From the NCBI RefSeq assembly GCF_900005615.1, contig NZ_LN832559.1, positions 898,837 to 962,836 of the forward strand: 64,000 nt of DNA, written 5' to 3'. The stretch is from Paracoccus aminovorans (GTDB lineage: Bacteria > Pseudomonadota > Alphaproteobacteria > Rhodobacterales > Rhodobacteraceae). This document shows, one piece after another, positions 31,301 through 37,489 of the stretch (its first letter is position 1; the number at the start of each line of letters is the position of its first letter). A program made the position numbers and the translations under genes. Under the pieces are notes generated by a model. It did no database searches. It was given only the letters and a program-made list of their open reading frames with translations, and was not told the DNA's origin.

Positions 31301-34141
31301 ATGGATTTCGCCGCCCGCATCACCCGCCTTCCGATCCCCGCCGACCCGGCCCGCGGCCAGTCCGCCCTGCAGGCCACCGGCATCGCCGACCCGCGCCTGG
31401 GCGATCTGATCCGCGGCACCGCCGGATGCAGCCCCTATCTTGCCGGCCTGATCGAGCGCGAGGCCGGCTGGCTGCCCGACGCCCTGGCGCATGAGGATGT
31501 CGTCGCGCGCGAGACCGCCGGCTTCGAGACGTTGACGCCCGACCAGCTTGGCCCGGCGCTGCGCCGGGCCAAGCGCCGGGTGGCGCTGTGGGCGGCGCTG
31601 GCCGATCTGGGCGGTGTCTGGCGGCTGGAGCAGGTGACCGGGGCGCTGACCGAGCTGGCCGACCGGGCCACCGACCTGGCGCTGCGGGCCCATGTCGCGG
31701 CCGAGGCCGCGCGCGGCAAGCTGCCCCCGACCGCGGCCGATGCCGGCGGCATCGTCGCGCTGGCCATGGGCAAGATGGGCGCGGGCGAGTTGAACTATTC
31801 CTCGGACATCGACCTGATCGTGCTTTACGACGACAGCGCCTATGACCGCGACGATCAGCACGAGGCCCGCGCCAGCCTGATCCGCGCCACCCGCAAGGCG
31901 GCGGCGACGATTTCGGACAACACCGACCAGGGCTATGTCTTCCGCACCGACCTGCGGTTGCGGCCGGATGCCTCGGTCACGCCGGTCTGCGTGCCGATCT
32001 CGGGCGCGCTGGCCTATTACGAGGCCGAGGGCCGCACCTGGGAACGCAGCGCCTATATCAAGGCCCGGCCCTGCGGCGGCGATCTGGCTGCCGGCGCGCG
32101 TTTCCTGCGCGAACTCGATCCCTTCGTCTGGCGCCGCCACCTGGATTTCGCCACCATTCAGGACGCGCATGACATGCGGCTGCGCATCCGCGACCACAAG
32201 GGGCTGCACGGCCGCATCGAGGTGCCCGGCCACAACATGAAGCTGGGCCAGGGCGGCATCCGCGAGATCGAGTTCTTCACCCAGACCCGGCAGCTGATCG
32301 CGGGTGGGCGCGACCCGGACCTGCGGGTGCGCGGCACGGTCGAGGGGCTGGCCCGACTGGCCGAAAAGGGCTGGGTGCCGTCCGAGGTCGCGGCCGAGCT
32401 GACCGATCACTATCGCGAACACCGCGAGATCGAGCATCGCATCCAGATGGTGAACGACGCCCAGACCCATTCGCTGCCGGTCGCGCCCGAGAGCATCGAC
32501 ACCATCGCCCGCATGATGGGCGCGCCCGACACCGCCGCCTGGTCGGCGCGGCTGGCCGCGCGGCTGCAGCGGGTCGAGGCGCTGACCGGCGATTTCTTCG
32601 CCCCCGGCGAGCAGCGCGAGCGGCCGCAGCTGTCTTCGGAGGCGCAGGCGCTGGTCGACGGCTGGCGCAGCTACCCGGCGCTGCGTTCGGCGCGCGGCCG
32701 CGAGGTTTTCGCCCGCATCGAGCCGGAGCTGCTGACCCGGCTGACCGCGGCCGCCCACAGCGATGAGGCTCTGGCCCGGTTCGATGCCTTCCTGTCGCGG
32801 CTGCCTGCAGGCGTGCAGCTCTTTTCGCTCTTCGAGGCCAATCCGCAGCTGATCGACCTGATCGTGGACATCTGCGCCACGGCGCCGGGCCTCGCCGCCT
32901 ATCTGGCGCGCCACCCCGAGGTGCTGGACGCGGTGCTGGGCGGCAGCTTCTTCTCGGAATGGCCGGGGGCAGAGGATCTGCGCCGGCAGCTGGAGGCGAT
33001 GCTGGCGCATGTGCTGGCCGCGCCCGACGGCGGCTACGAGCGGGCGCTGGATGCGGCCCGGCGCTGGGCGCATGAATGGCAATTCCGCACCGGCGTCCAT
33101 CACCTGCGCGCCCTCATCGGCGCCGAAGAGGCCGGGGCGCAATATGCCGACATCGCCGATGCGGCGGTCGCGGCGCTGTTTCCGGTGGTCGCCGCCGATT
33201 TCGCCCGCCGGCACGGGCCGCCGCCCGGGCGCGGCGCGGTGGTGCTGGGCATGGGTTCGCTGGGGGCGCGGCAGTTGAATGCCGGCTCGGACCTGGACCT
33301 GATCGTGATCTACGACGCGGCGGGGCAGGACGCCTCCGAGGGACCGAAGCCGCTGGCGACGCGGGCGTATTATGCGCGGCTGACCCAGGCGACGATCACG
33401 GCGATCTCGGCGCCGACCTCGGCCGGGCGGCTCTACGAGGTCGACATGCGGCTGCGTCCCTCGGGGCGGCAGGGGCCGGTGGCGACCTCGGTGCAGAGCT
33501 TCCGCGACTACCAGCTGACCGAGGCCTGGACCTGGGAACATCTGGCCCTGACCCGGGCCCGCGTCATCGGCACCTGCGGCGCGGATGCCCAGTCGCTGGC
33601 GCAAGAGGTCGAGGCGCTGCGCGTCGAGGTTCTGGCGGCGCGCGGCGGCGATGCCCGTGTCCTGCCCGACCTGGCCGAGATGCGGGCGCGGATCTTTGCC
33701 GCCAAGGCTTCGGATGGCGCCTGGGAGGCCAAGACCGGCCGCGGCCGGTTGCAGGACATCGAACTGCTGGCGCAGAGTTTCGCGCTGCGTGCGGCCGTGC
33801 CGGCCCGGGCGACGCCCGCGCAGTTGCGGGCCGGGCCGCGCGCCGGGCTGATCGCGCGCGATCTGGCCGAGACGCTTGCCGCGGCCCGGCGGTTCCTGTG
33901 GAACCTGCAATGCGCCGGACGCCTGCTGACGGAACGGCCGCTGGACATGCAGAACCTCGGCAAGGGCGGCCAGGCTTTCCTGCTGCGCGAGACCGGATGC
34001 GAGACCCTGGACCAGTTGGCCGCCCGCCTGGCCGAGACTGCCGAGATCACCGGCACCATCATAGATGCGGCCATCGCCGAGGGGGGCGGGGAAGCCGGTG
34101 CCGAAGCTGCGCAAGCCGCGGCGCAGGCGCGGGCGGAATAG
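31301..34141 (+). CDS. glnE: Bifunctional glutamine-synthetase adenylyltransferase / deadenylase
   Basis: Adds and removes AMP on glutamine synthetase in response to PII and glutamine. The 946-residue protein has the duplicated nucleotidyltransferase layout. The N-terminal (deadenylase) active site is LAMGKMGAGELNYSSDIDLI at about residues 154-173. The C-terminal (adenylylase) site is LGMGSLGARQLNAGSDLDLI at about 648-667. Each is followed by its helical GlnD/PII-response region (DMRLRIRDHKGLHGR; WEAKTGRGRLQDIELLAQ). The length matches the family. The C-terminus trails into an Ala-rich helix (AGAEAAQAAAQARAE). It converges on the MshEN-GT2 gene with 13 nt between stops. Confidence 0.96.
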   Translation: MDFAARITRLPIPADPARGQSALQATGIADPRLGDLIRGTAGCSPYLAGLIEREAGWLPDALAHEDVVARETAGFETLTPDQLGPALRRAKRRVALWAALADLGGVWRLEQVTGALTELADRATDLALRAHVAAEAARGKLPPTAADAGGIVALAMGKMGAGELNYSSDIDLIVLYDDSAYDRDDQHEARASLIRATRKAAATISDNTDQGYVFRTDLRLRPDASVTPVCVPISGALAYYEAEGRTWERSAYIKARPCGGDLAAGARFLRELDPFVWRRHLDFATIQDAHDMRLRIRDHKGLHGRIEVPGHNMKLGQGGIREIEFFTQTRQLIAGGRDPDLRVRGTVEGLARLAEKGWVPSEVAAELTDHYREHREIEHRIQMVNDAQTHSLPVAPESIDTIARMMGAPDTAAWSARLAARLQRVEALTGDFFAPGEQRERPQLSSEAQALVDGWRSYPALRSARGREVFARIEPELLTRLTAAAHSDEALARFDAFLSRLPAGVQLFSLFEANPQLIDLIVDICATAPGLAAYLARHPEVLDAVLGGSFFSEWPGAEDLRRQLEAMLAHVLAAPDGGYERALDAARRWAHEWQFRTGVHHLRALIGAEEAGAQYADIADAAVAALFPVVAADFARRHGPPPGRGAVVLGMGSLGARQLNAGSDLDLIVIYDAAGQDASEGPKPLATRAYYARLTQATITAISAPTSAGRLYEVDMRLRPSGRQGPVATSVQSFRDYQLTEAWTWEHLALTRARVIGTCGADAQSLAQEVEALRVEVLAARGGDARVLPDLAEMRARIFAAKASDGAWEAKTGRGRLQDIELLAQSFALRAAVPARATPAQLRAGPRAGLIARDLAETLAAARRFLWNLQCAGRLLTERPLDMQNLGKGGQAFLLRETGCETLDQLAARLAETAEITGTIIDAAIAEGGGEAGAEAAQAAAQARAE

Positions 34142-34154
34142 ACCGCGGGCAAGC

Positions 34155-36248
34155 TCAGCCGATCTTGCCCAACAGGGGCAGCTGCGCGGTGTCGCCGAGA
34201 GGGATGGCCGGCGCGCGGGCCGCGGTCTTGCCCGTCGCCGCAAGCGGGGCGTCCAGCGCCTCGCGCAGCGGCACCAGAGCGGCAGCAGCGGCGGGCGTCG
34301 CGACAGGCGTGTCTTCGGGCCCGGCCTCGAAGATGCCGTGCTGGGTCTTGTCCCAGTAGAAGGGTTTCGCCACCACCTCGTAGATCGCCTTCCAGGCGGC
34401 CAGGCAGCCCAGCGGGAAATACAGGTGCAGCATCGGCACCCAGGGCAGCAGGTGGCGGTGCCGGGGACCGCGCACGGCCCAAAGGCCGACGGCGATGTTC
34501 AGGATCTCGGACAGCACGAAAAGCGTGAACAGAATGGCGATGGCGTTGCCGCCCAGCATCCCCGACAGCACGCCGCGCATCGGATGCGGCAGGCCGAGGC
34601 TGAGCAGCCAGAAGCTCCACAGCACCGGCGCCAGCAGATATTGCGACAGCGAGGCGAAAAGCTGCACCTGCAATCCCAGGAAGCGCCGCGTGCCCAGGTC
34701 GCGCCACAGCGCCACAGGGTCGCGCATGTGCACGCCCCAGGTCATGGCGAAGCCCTTGAGCCAGCGCGAGCGCTGCTTGACCCAGGGGAGCAGCCGGCAA
34801 TTCGCCTCTTCATGCGTGACCGTGTCCAGCATCTGCGTGCGATAGCCCCGCCGGGTCAGACGCACGCCCAGATCGGCGTCTTCGGTCACGTTCCAGGCGT
34901 CCCAGGCGCCGACCTCTTCCAGCTTGTCGCGGCGGAAGAACAGCGTCGTGCCGCCCAGCGGCACCACCAGGTCCAGCGCCGCCGCGCCGGCCAGCGTGCC
35001 GCGGAACCAGGACGCATATTCGATGGTGAAGGCGCGGGCCAGCCAGTTGGTGCGCGGGTTGTAATAATCCAGCACGCCCTGCAGGCAGACCACATCGGGG
35101 GCGGCGAAATGGAAGCCGCGCGCGACCTTGTGCAACTGGTCCGGTTCGGGGCGATCCTCGGCGTCCCAGACCCCGATGATCGAGCCGCGGCAGAAGTTCA
35201 GCGCATAGTTCAACGCCCGCGGCTTGGTGCGGATCGGCCCGTCGGGCACCTTCACCACCCGCATCCAGCGCGGCAGGCGTGCGGTTTCCAGCGCCTCGCA
35301 GGTGACGCGGTCCGTGTCCTCGACCACCAGCAGGATGTCCATCAGTTCGCGCGGGTAATCCAGCTGCGACAGCCGGCCGATCAGCTTGTCGGCGATGTTG
35401 GCCTCGGCGAACAGCGGCACCATGACCGAGATCACCGGCAGCGGCGCCTTCATTTCGGGGCGCGGGATCGCGCCGAGGGCCATGGCGCGGGCCTCTTGCC
35501 GCTCTTGATGGGTGCGGCGCAGGATCGCCTGGAACGACAGCAGCTTCAGCGCGGCCGAGGCCAGCAGCGTCAGCACCGCCCAGACCGTCAGGGCCGTGAT
35601 CACGGCGATGGGCGCCAAAAGCATCCCCAGCGTCGCCGCCCCCACCGATGCGACGACGAGCCGGCCGAAGCGCCGCTCGTTGCGGGTGCGGCAGCTTTCG
35701 GTGGCGGGAACGCGGGTCTCGGCCTGGCGAATCAGCGCGGTGCGGCGCAGGCCCATGATCGCTTCGCGGGCGGCGGTTTCCGAACACAGCAACATGCGCA
35801 CCGCGCCGAAGCCCGCGGGCATGCGGTCGCGCAGGGCGTCGAATTCATCCGGACGCGCGGTGGCGATGAAGGTGACGCCGCCGACCCGGCGCCAGGGCAC
35901 CAGACCCTGCGCCAGGCAGAATTGCGCCCCTAATGCATCGACCAGCCGGGGGTCCGGGGGCAGCGCGGCCAGGTCCAGCACGCTGCTGCGCCATTGCCGG
36001 GACAGGGCGCGGGTCAGGGCCTCTTCCTGGACCCAGCCGTTGGCCAGCAGGATCTCGCCCAGCCGGGCCTGCTGGCGGCGGCGCATGACCACGGCCCGAA
36101 GCAGGTTGCGCGGATCGACCGCGCCGTCCTCGATCAGGATCTGGCCCAGCGGGCGCAGGTCGCGGGGGGCGACCAACGTATCCTGCGGCGCGGGCGCGGC
36201 GGGTGCCGGCGCGGGACGACGGGGTTTGAGAAGGGCGATGCCGGCCAT
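34155..36248 (-). CDS. GT2 glycosyltransferase with N-terminal MshEN (c-di-GMP-type) domain
   Basis: A 697-residue membrane synthase. An Ala/Pro leader precedes an MshEN/GspE-N domain at about 32-165, with two repeats PLGQILIEDGAVDPRNLL and RLGEILLANGWVQEEALTRA followed by LDLAALPPDPRLVDALG. Two transmembrane helices lie at about 195-236. A processive GT2 domain runs about 268-500: LLVVEDTD, DxD-type WDAEDRPEPDQL at 361-372, acceptor TED at 455-457 and QRSRW at 492-496. Four or so C-terminal helices follow. MshEN domains bind c-di-GMP in MshE-type ATPases and in the NfrB glycosyltransferase, so allosteric control by c-di-GMP is inferred. A CtrA-like site lies upstream. The polymer made is unknown. 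Confidence 0.85.
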   Translation of the reverse strand: MAGIALLKPRRPAPAPAAPAPQDTLVAPRDLRPLGQILIEDGAVDPRNLLRAVVMRRRQQARLGEILLANGWVQEEALTRALSRQWRSSVLDLAALPPDPRLVDALGAQFCLAQGLVPWRRVGGVTFIATARPDEFDALRDRMPAGFGAVRMLLCSETAAREAIMGLRRTALIRQAETRVPATESCRTRNERRFGRLVVASVGAATLGMLLAPIAVITALTVWAVLTLLASAALKLLSFQAILRRTHQERQEARAMALGAIPRPEMKAPLPVISVMVPLFAEANIADKLIGRLSQLDYPRELMDILLVVEDTDRVTCEALETARLPRWMRVVKVPDGPIRTKPRALNYALNFCRGSIIGVWDAEDRPEPDQLHKVARGFHFAAPDVVCLQGVLDYYNPRTNWLARAFTIEYASWFRGTLAGAAALDLVVPLGGTTLFFRRDKLEEVGAWDAWNVTEDADLGVRLTRRGYRTQMLDTVTHEEANCRLLPWVKQRSRWLKGFAMTWGVHMRDPVALWRDLGTRRFLGLQVQLFASLSQYLLAPVLWSFWLLSLGLPHPMRGVLSGMLGGNAIAILFTLFVLSEILNIAVGLWAVRGPRHRHLLPWVPMLHLYFPLGCLAAWKAIYEVVAKPFYWDKTQHGIFEAGPEDTPVATPAAAAALVPLREALDAPLAATGKTAARAPAIPLGDTAQLPLLGKIG

Positions 36249-36300
36249 GCGCGATTCCCGATCCTGGGCTGTTCCTCGCCCCTCTGTTGCATGCTCGGGG

Positions 36301-36315
36301 TTAAGAAGCCGTTAA
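36301..36315. promoter_or_regulatory. CtrA-type binding site upstream of the MshEN-GT2 gene
   Basis: Perfect TTAA-N7-TTAA (spacer GAAGCCG on the plus strand), 53 nt upstream of the synthase ATG. It matches the alphaproteobacterial CtrA consensus and is conspicuous in this GC-rich DNA. Confidence 0.5.
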
Positions 36316-36340: not shown

Positions 36341-37489
36341 TCAGCCGCGGCGCGCGCGCATCGCCTCGGCGAAGCGGTCGAAGAGATAGGCGCTGTCCTG
36401 CGGGCCGGGGCTGGCCTCGGGGTGGTACTGCACCGAAAACACCGGCTTTTCCGCCATGCGCAGCCCGCAGTTCGAGCCGTCGAACAGGCTGACATGGGTC
36501 TCGATGACGCCCTCGGGCAGGGTCTGGGCATCGACCGCGAAACCGTGGTTCATCGAGGTGATCTCGACCTTGCCGGATTCCAGGTCCTTGACGGGGTGGT
36601 TTGCGCCGTGGTGGCCGTGGTTCATCTTGATGGTCTTGGCGCCAAGCGCCAGCGCCAGCATCTGGTGACCCAGGCAGATGCCGAATATCGGCAGGTCCTT
36701 CTCCAGTAGGTCGCGGATCATCGGCACGGCATATTCGCCGGTCGCGGCCGGGTCGCCCGGGCCGTTCGACAGGAAGACGCCCTCGGGGTCGTGGGCCATC
36801 ACCTCTTCGGCGGAGGCGGTGGCGGGCAGGACCGTGACCTCGGCGCCGCTCTGCGCCAGCGAGCGCAGGATGTTGCGCTTGGCGCCATAGTCCAGCGCCA
36901 CGACGCGGAACGGCGTCTGCTCGGGGACGGAGCCGAACTGGCCCGGCCATTCCCACAGCCCCTGGTCCCAGCGATAGCTTTGCCGCGTGCTGACCTCTTT
37001 CGCCAGGTCGAGCCCGACCAGCCCCTGCCAGTCGCGGGCGCGCGCCACCATGGCGGCGATGTCGAAATCGCCCTGCGGATCATGGGCCAGCACCACATGG
37101 GGCGAGCCCTGCTGGCGGATGGCGCGGGTCAGCCGGCGGGTGTCGATGCCGCCGATGCCGATGCGGCCGCGCTTTTCCATCCACGCCACCAGCTCGGCCG
37201 TGGCGCGCCAGTTCGAGGGCTCGGTCGGGTCCCATTTCACCACGATGCCCGAGGCGACGGGGTCGGCCGCCTCGTCGTCCTGTTCGGTGACGCCGGTGTT
37301 GCCGATATGGGGGAAGGTGAAGGTGACGATCTGGCTGGCGTAGGAGGGATCGGTCATGATCTCCTGATAGCCGGTCATGGCGGTGTTGAAGACCAGCTCG
37401 GCCACCACCTCGCCGGCCGCGCCGAAGCCCTGGCCGTAGAAAACGGTGCCGTCGGCAAGCGCAAGACAGGCGGTGGGCTTCTGGGGCAT
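36341..37489 (-). CDS. carA: Carbamoyl-phosphate synthase small subunit
   Basis: Glutaminase subunit of carbamoyl-phosphate synthetase, supplying ammonia to CarB for arginine and pyrimidine synthesis. The 382-residue protein has the CPSase small-chain N-terminal domain (LALADGTVFYGQGFGAAGEV) and a C-terminal class I glutamine amidotransferase. The catalytic cysteine is in IFGICLGHQMLALAL and the His-Glu pair is in VQYHPEASPGPQDS. carB is not in the window. It has its own promoter (37517-37545) and lies 92 bp upstream of the MshEN-GT2 gene on the same strand. Confidence 0.96.
   Translation of the reverse strand: MPQKPTACLALADGTVFYGQGFGAAGEVVAELVFNTAMTGYQEIMTDPSYASQIVTFTFPHIGNTGVTEQDDEAADPVASGIVVKWDPTEPSNWRATAELVAWMEKRGRIGIGGIDTRRLTRAIRQQGSPHVVLAHDPQGDFDIAAMVARARDWQGLVGLDLAKEVSTRQSYRWDQGLWEWPGQFGSVPEQTPFRVVALDYGAKRNILRSLAQSGAEVTVLPATASAEEVMAHDPEGVFLSNGPGDPAATGEYAVPMIRDLLEKDLPIFGICLGHQMLALALGAKTIKMNHGHHGANHPVKDLESGKVEITSMNHGFAVDAQTLPEGVIETHVSLFDGSNCGLRMAEKPVFSVQYHPEASPGPQDSAYLFDRFAEAMRARRG

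Follow-up and report, generated by a model that had tools for sequence, protein, structure and literature searches.

A lone MshEN–glycosyltransferase gene behind a conserved CtrA-type box in Rhodobacteraceae, a candidate c-di-GMP-gated polysaccharide synthase

Introduction

What is a family 2 glycosyltransferase (GT2) gene doing by itself behind carA, with a domain of the cyclic di-GMP (c-di-GMP)-binding MshEN type at its N terminus and a CtrA-type site in front of it? We investigated this question in a 64,000-nucleotide (nt) stretch of Paracoccus aminovorans (contig NZ_LN832559.1, positions 898,837 to 962,836 of the forward strand; hereafter the window), in which an ATG-initiated gene for a 697-residue MshEN-GT2 protein was delimited from the open reading frame (ORF) list, profile matches and a predicted structure (34155..36248, minus strand). 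Our analysis favours, with a probability of roughly 0.6, a single-gene Rhodobacteraceae surface-polysaccharide synthase, with expression activated by CtrA and activity predicted to be gated by c-di-GMP through MshEN. A sequence-only reading of the window had proposed a c-di-GMP-gated, CtrA-timed synthase; its MshEN fold, processive-type GT2 domain and CtrA-type site are borne out, while ligand binding and polymer synthesis are still predictions, and an exopolysaccharide is the product that we infer. For CtrA-timed expression, the comparative evidence is strong.

The CtrA-type box is conserved in relatives

The box, TTAAC-N6-TTAA(C), lies at 36301..36315 on the minus strand: TTAACGGCTTCTTAACC begins at 36315, and its TTAA-N7-TTAA part ends 52 nt ahead of the ATG. 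The perfect TTAA-N7-TTAA seen upstream by the sequence-only reading is the sole one in the window, where shuffles predict 0.01, at a distance of 52 nt and not the 53 nt first given. In the genome as a whole the pattern is not enriched, with 11 sites compared with 18 for a reversed control pattern. Because these sites are fewer than those of the control, the box alone is weak evidence, and the case for its function comes from conservation in relatives, not from genome-wide enrichment.

In a first batch of 90 orthologous loci, a perfect TTAA-N7-TTAA was found upstream in 85, with other spacings yielding 0–2 and no perfect site in a further 416,736 bases of these loci. As these loci were the best-scoring part of the list, 49, 12 and 78 further loci were added against bias, which brought the census to 229 genomes out of the 236 that bear the gene (G077, G083, G084, G095, G171, G191 and G214 were left out; L266 ends at a contig end). 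On its own, the second batch carried the perfect box in 43/49 loci, and of twelve loci chosen because their CtrA matches were odd, or as relatives of such loci, seven carried it. Across the census, the perfect box was present in 184/229 loci when anchored on carA and in a further 7 when anchored on the GT2 gene (a second look given to 17 loci only), a total of 191/229, and in another 28 loci the site differed at one base (often TTTAC). When the gaps were shuffled by mononucleotide, a perfect site arose in 1/1110 and a site with at most one mismatch in 37/1110. Ten loci lacked a site when viewed from the carA end; three of these (L096, L195 and L275) showed one from the GT2 end, as did four of the seven loci without a carA match. 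Among named records, whose species overlap with the census, the box was on the 5′ side in 74/80 and on the 3′ side in 0/80.

Alignment of 85 sites gave the consensus TTAAC-N6-TTAACC together with a −10-like element at a fixed offset, with A at offsets 27 and 28 in 48/85 each and T at offset 32 in 49/85; the box itself is thus in a −35-like placement. The corresponding element of the window, AACAGA (36283..36288, minus strand; offsets 27–32 from the box start), is weak and lacks the T at offset 32. Spacer bases are variable except for the first, and the distance from box to assigned start ranges from 12 to 80 nt (median 46), which argues that the conservation of the box is not mere sequence similarity. 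In 25 loci from other alphaproteobacterial families, several of which match in the GT2 part only, there was no perfect box and there were two one-mismatch sites.

Three genomes (G039, G066 and G236) contain a second MshEN-GT2 copy that is 33–34% identical. Those of G039 and G066 (L149 and L150) have neither a carA neighbour nor the box. Given that a perfect box is missing from the loci of other families and that these two second copies have none, the wiring belongs to the carA-linked orthologue of the family. Box conservation, together with a CtrA homologue in this genome, agrees with the CtrA-type site of the sequence-only reading and offers far stronger evidence for it than that reading had.

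An MshEN domain precedes a processive-type GT2 core

The MshEN (GSPII) domain occupies residues 31–170 (35739..36158, minus strand). Residues 33–85 match NCBIfam NF053729, an MshE-related c-di-GMP motif (48.2 bits, cut-off 38), and residues 90–164 match Pfam PF05157 (MshEN; 32.1 bits, cut-off 23.1). The comparison with PF05157 and the structure prediction suggested earlier for residues 30–170 thus gave a profile match above cut-off and a modelled MshEN fold, a four-helix bundle plus an alpha/beta subdomain. For the full-length model the structure-match list was occupied by the GT2 part and bears only on the families that it names; with the MshEN part, the closest folds among the matches listed were c-di-GMP-bound structures.

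The GT2 catalytic core (residues 261–505; 34734..35468, minus strand) was delimited by profiles, motifs and fold. Residues 272–574 match the Pfam GT2 families PF13632, PF13641, PF00535 and PF13506, all above cut-off, and every residue of DAED (362–365), TED (455–457) and QRSRW (492–496) is identical in 90/90 aligned orthologues. Hydropathy and model helices place membrane helices before the core (residues ~191–243; 35520..35678, minus strand) and membrane plus interface helices after it (residues ~506–640; 34329..34733, minus strand): hydropathy marks stretches at ~194–243 and ~559–594 and two weaker ones within the core (268–286 and 419–438), and the model has long helices at 191–257, 511–538, 569–591 and 598–627. 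The architecture described from the letters alone, with MshEN N-terminal to a complete, processive GT2 domain that carries DxD-type, TED and QRSRW motifs between flanking membrane helices, is thereby upheld by the profiles, the motifs, hydropathy and the model with its structure matches.

A mostly intact predicted c-di-GMP site, and rival explanations

MshE contains two 24-residue c-di-GMP motifs that start with RLG and end with LxxxLxxQ (PMC5013675). In our protein, motif II is intact, with 6/6 key residues (R62, L63, G64, L78, L82 and Q85), while motif I (P33, L34, G35, L49, V53 and R56) retains 3/6 under strict scoring. The two repeats that the sequence-only reading saw at about 33–85 hence coincide with the span of NF053729, with the correction that motif I begins with PLG, not RLG, and that its final Gln is Arg. 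Taking both motifs together, 11/12 positions are compatible with known binders. Position 1 is described as tolerant: in GSPII-B, binding is tight with Lys and Leu at this position, and GSPII-C, one of whose motifs starts with Pro (P335), also binds c-di-GMP (PMC11731258, PMC12002112). The Leu-to-Val change in motif I should be mild, because two Leu-to-Ile reversions jointly lower binding only 2.4-fold (PMC12002112).

Residue-by-residue checking of the MshEN content in the 90 orthologues (in some others the query match begins after residue 80) found all 12 binder-compatible positions in 27/90 and at least 10 in 59/90. Mean column identity is 0.51 in MshEN_N and 0.74 in the GT2 core; set beside the invariant catalytic residues, this implies a sensor that is less constrained than the enzyme.

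Several observations weigh against gating by c-di-GMP. The Gln-to-Arg change at R56 is doubtful for the predicted binding, as Gln at the motif-end positions of GSPII-A was required to restore binding (PMC12002112), although, according to the entry title of a structure match, crystals of the GSPII-B mutant Q190E contained c-di-GMP. In 28/90 orthologues, 8 or fewer of the 12 positions are binder-compatible; motif loss has probably weakened any such gating in about a third of the aligned orthologues, and the motif looks evolutionarily labile. On these grounds MshEN could be a docking or structural domain rather than a c-di-GMP sensor, with CtrA control real and the synthase governed by its expression or by a protein partner. 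We consider this possible, though unlikely: a second, slightly different scoring finds all 12 positions in 29/90 orthologues, at least 10 in 61/90 and 8 or fewer in 28/90; the motif score falls from 9.5 in register to 0.7–4.0 when the register is shifted; the nearest folds are ligand-bound; the genome has no PilZ match; and Q190 contacts the ligand (PMC11731258).

A less probable alternative concerns the reaction itself, whereby the enzyme would not be a polymer synthase but would transfer a single sugar, or a few, onto an envelope acceptor such as a lipid carrier or lipopolysaccharide. The D,D, TED and QxxRW motifs and the membrane helices of a processive GT2 synthase are all present, and we infer an inner-membrane processive-type GT2 with N-terminal MshEN, its polymer synthesis predicted from motifs and fold.

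CtrA and other perfect boxes

We surveyed CtrA with a Caulobacter CtrA query, scoring the seven best first-look candidates per genome. This genome encodes one homologue, 72% identical to the query, and 387/390 genomes of the order gave a match. Two genomes of 2.5–2.6 Mb, G232 and G658, have no CtrA match and also lack the GT2 gene, and their same-genus relatives have both. Four genomes speak against strict co-loss of gene and CtrA. The gene and a perfect box are both present in G133, which yields no CtrA match at E 1e-50; its CtrA may have escaped the search or be lacking in the assembly, or the box may be used by some other factor. G074, G144 and G215 keep the gene with weak CtrA matches only (E 1e-54 to 1e-58), and G144 and G215 have perfect boxes nonetheless. 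Seven other genomes have CtrA and lack the gene.

Elsewhere in this genome, perfect boxes were found near a CckA-like kinase, a ComM/YifB protein, a holin-associated muramidase and a large terminase, as well as near a weakly tail-like protein, a PAS protein, an RTX protein and a UPF0093 protein. Two more are on contig C4, one of them near a sugar-isomerase-like ORF and one unassigned. Neither the terminase nor the tail-like protein received an NCBIfam name. In relatives, CckA, DivL, competence and gene transfer agent (GTA) genes are reported as CtrA-controlled or predicted CtrA targets (PMC6473078, PMC4046655, PMC2877005, PMC12363192), and the boxes near CckA-like, competence and candidate GTA genes therefore support reading the box as CtrA's. 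Two CtrA regulon papers name no glycosyltransferase in their main texts, where the word beginnings ‘glycosyl’ (PMC4046655), ‘glycos’ (PMC12363192) and ‘polysaccharide’ (both) are absent.

Use of the box by a different regulator or element is very improbable: a Dnr/Fnr-type site has the TTAAC half in common (PMC7232146), and the boxes of G133, G144 and G215 and the lack of genome-wide enrichment lean the same way, but the printed CtrA motif is matched in both TTAA halves and in spacing, the placement is −35-like, and the same perfect site lies near CckA, ComM/YifB, large terminase and muramidase genes, kinds that are CtrA-controlled or predicted targets in relatives.

As a separate observation, the muramidase (L036:1320-1943), terminase (L034:2427-3836) and ComM/YifB (L037:2035-3567) genes each have a perfect TTAA-N7-TTAA within ~400 bases of their start and would make up a compact regulon for GTA and competence. 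In the RTX-repeat ORF (L039:984-2018; contig C1 near 3050772), the first 46 bases as called include a perfect CtrA-type box; the RTX-type protein Rcc00280 is described as the major repressor of the Rhodobacter capsulatus GTA (PMC13420450).

Locus and distribution

Upstream, on the same strand, lies a gene that we take to be carA (carbamoyl-phosphate synthase small subunit; 36341..37489, minus strand), ending 92 nt before the MshEN-GT2 gene, and downstream a presumed glnE-like ORF (31301..34141, plus strand) converges on the gene and ends 13 nt from its stop. With these flanks the GT2 gene stands alone, in keeping with the earlier statement that no polysaccharide cluster adjoins it. carA is beside MshEN-GT2 in the fetched stretch of 222/229 relatives, which typically have carA upstream and a HAD-like or glnE-like gene downstream. 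The glnE-like neighbour was matched in 14/90 loci, and 73/90 loci form one downstream-similarity group. Five loci without it (L017, L028, L071, L086 and L100) have next downstream what we take to be a HAD-type hydrolase ORF (VFDLDNTLYPP), and a presumably GntR-type ORF is also present in several of the six printed downstream flanks.

The orthologue was found in 236/244 sampled genomes of the order; in one genome (G079:C5:86727-92616), the match is in two pieces ~4 kb apart, suggesting an insertion. Named close proteins include those of Paracoccus sp. DMF (85% identity), Paracoccus denitrificans (83%) and Paracoccus yeei (82%). The P. aminovorans copy is on a 3.1-Mb contig and accounts for the only MshEN match in the genome. 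Spread by plasmids was considered and rejected: 11 plasmid records match, just 1 of them covering at least 80% of the query.

PilZ and GGDEF proteins

As the sequence-only reading had it, the protein has no PilZ domain: neither it nor the genome, which has two GGDEF matches, yielded a PilZ match. In the order, PilZ was detected in at least 63/244 genomes, compared with 236/244 for the MshEN-GT2 orthologue; the 181/244 without PilZ are an upper bound, since a smaller search found PilZ in G014, where the larger one missed it. In 30 chosen genomes, a small and non-random sample of all 8 gene-less genomes plus 22 with the gene, those with GGDEF and without PilZ all had the gene (9/9), and PilZ was present in every gene-less genome that had GGDEF (7/7, six of one genus). 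GGDEF was uninformative as a co-loss marker, being present in 29/30, apart from G232. Nor did PilZ appear to substitute for a decayed motif: 17 PilZ-positive and 73 PilZ-negative orthologues, labelled from the larger search that missed G014, showed no significant link (P = 0.14). Dinoroseobacter shibae is reported to have no identifiable PilZ gene, yet its c-di-GMP rises after quorum-sensing induction (PMC6473078).

Comparison with known systems

The architecture is known from other systems; here, N-terminal MshEN-GT2 stands alone behind carA under a CtrA-type box. No study of this gene was found by title or abstract start in the openly licensed literature. One database labels a close relative, P0090, ‘glycosyltransferase XagB’, after the protein of Xanthomonas xagABCD. 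XagB presumably has an N-terminal MshEN part; compared by description and layout, not by direct sequence, it and Sfz2 of Zetaproteobacteria share an N-terminal MshEN-type domain and a C-terminal GT2, and differ in belonging to polysaccharide or stalk clusters. Sfz2 is described as an N-terminal EpsE-like domain (IPR007831) followed by a GT2 with DxD, TED and QxxRW (PMC8250860), and biofilm formation by an X. oryzae pv. oryzicola rpfG mutant is partly due to xagB (PMC3609779). The fusion of MshEN to glycosyltransferases was already noted alongside the domain structure (PMC5013675), whereas in the traffic ATPases MshE, PilB and PilF the domain is joined to an ATPase.

E. coli NfrB (NfrB-NfrA-YbcH) likewise fuses MshEN to a GT2 that has the DxD, TED and QxxRW motifs. 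It binds c-di-GMP with a Kd of about 1 µM and synthesises a secreted exopolysaccharide, but its MshEN is C-terminal (PMC8669469). Our gene has no nfrA or ybcH neighbour, and the NCBIfam NfrB model matches its MshEN part only (38.9 bits, cut-off 1170). BcsA differs in its C-terminal PilZ, and the NCBIfam CelA model scored 42.3 bits (cut-off 699.1). BgsA, the mixed-linkage beta-glucan synthase of Sinorhizobium, is an alphaproteobacterial glycosyltransferase described as c-di-GMP-activated without PilZ; it is reported to have no predictable c-di-GMP domain, where our protein has an N-terminal MshEN. Identity with the R. capsulatus GTA receptor capsule genes (rcc01081-rcc01086) was rejected, as these form a cluster of six genes that strain 37b4 lacks (PMC10218006).

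Discussion

In the mechanism that we propose, conservation of the box suggests that phosphorylated CtrA would bind TTAAC-N6-TTAAC behind carA and activate transcription. Motifs and fold predict that the inner-membrane GT2 would polymerise sugars from a nucleotide-sugar donor and move the chain across the inner membrane via its own membrane helices. MshEN, fused ahead of the first of these helices, may gate the catalytic domain on binding c-di-GMP, as its fold and mostly intact site suggest. CtrA would then set the timing of the enzyme's synthesis, and c-di-GMP that of its activity.

A further proposal is that, in the many PilZ-less Rhodobacteraceae, c-di-GMP acts on the envelope mainly, and perhaps solely, through this CtrA-wired protein, and that its polymer serves the GTA and competence programme, as matrix or as receptor in the manner of the NfrB polymer for phage N4. 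It was prompted by the same box near CckA, ComM, muramidase, large terminase and RTX genes in this genome, and we regard it as highly speculative.

For the family, a near-universal gene with a CtrA-type box suggests a surface polymer of importance, and its fixed position with a perfect box in 191/229 species makes it likely that the CtrA programme acts on the envelope in an important way through this gene. In sampled genomes without a PilZ match (at most 181/244), the MshEN-GT2 family is a direct candidate for a c-di-GMP receptor.
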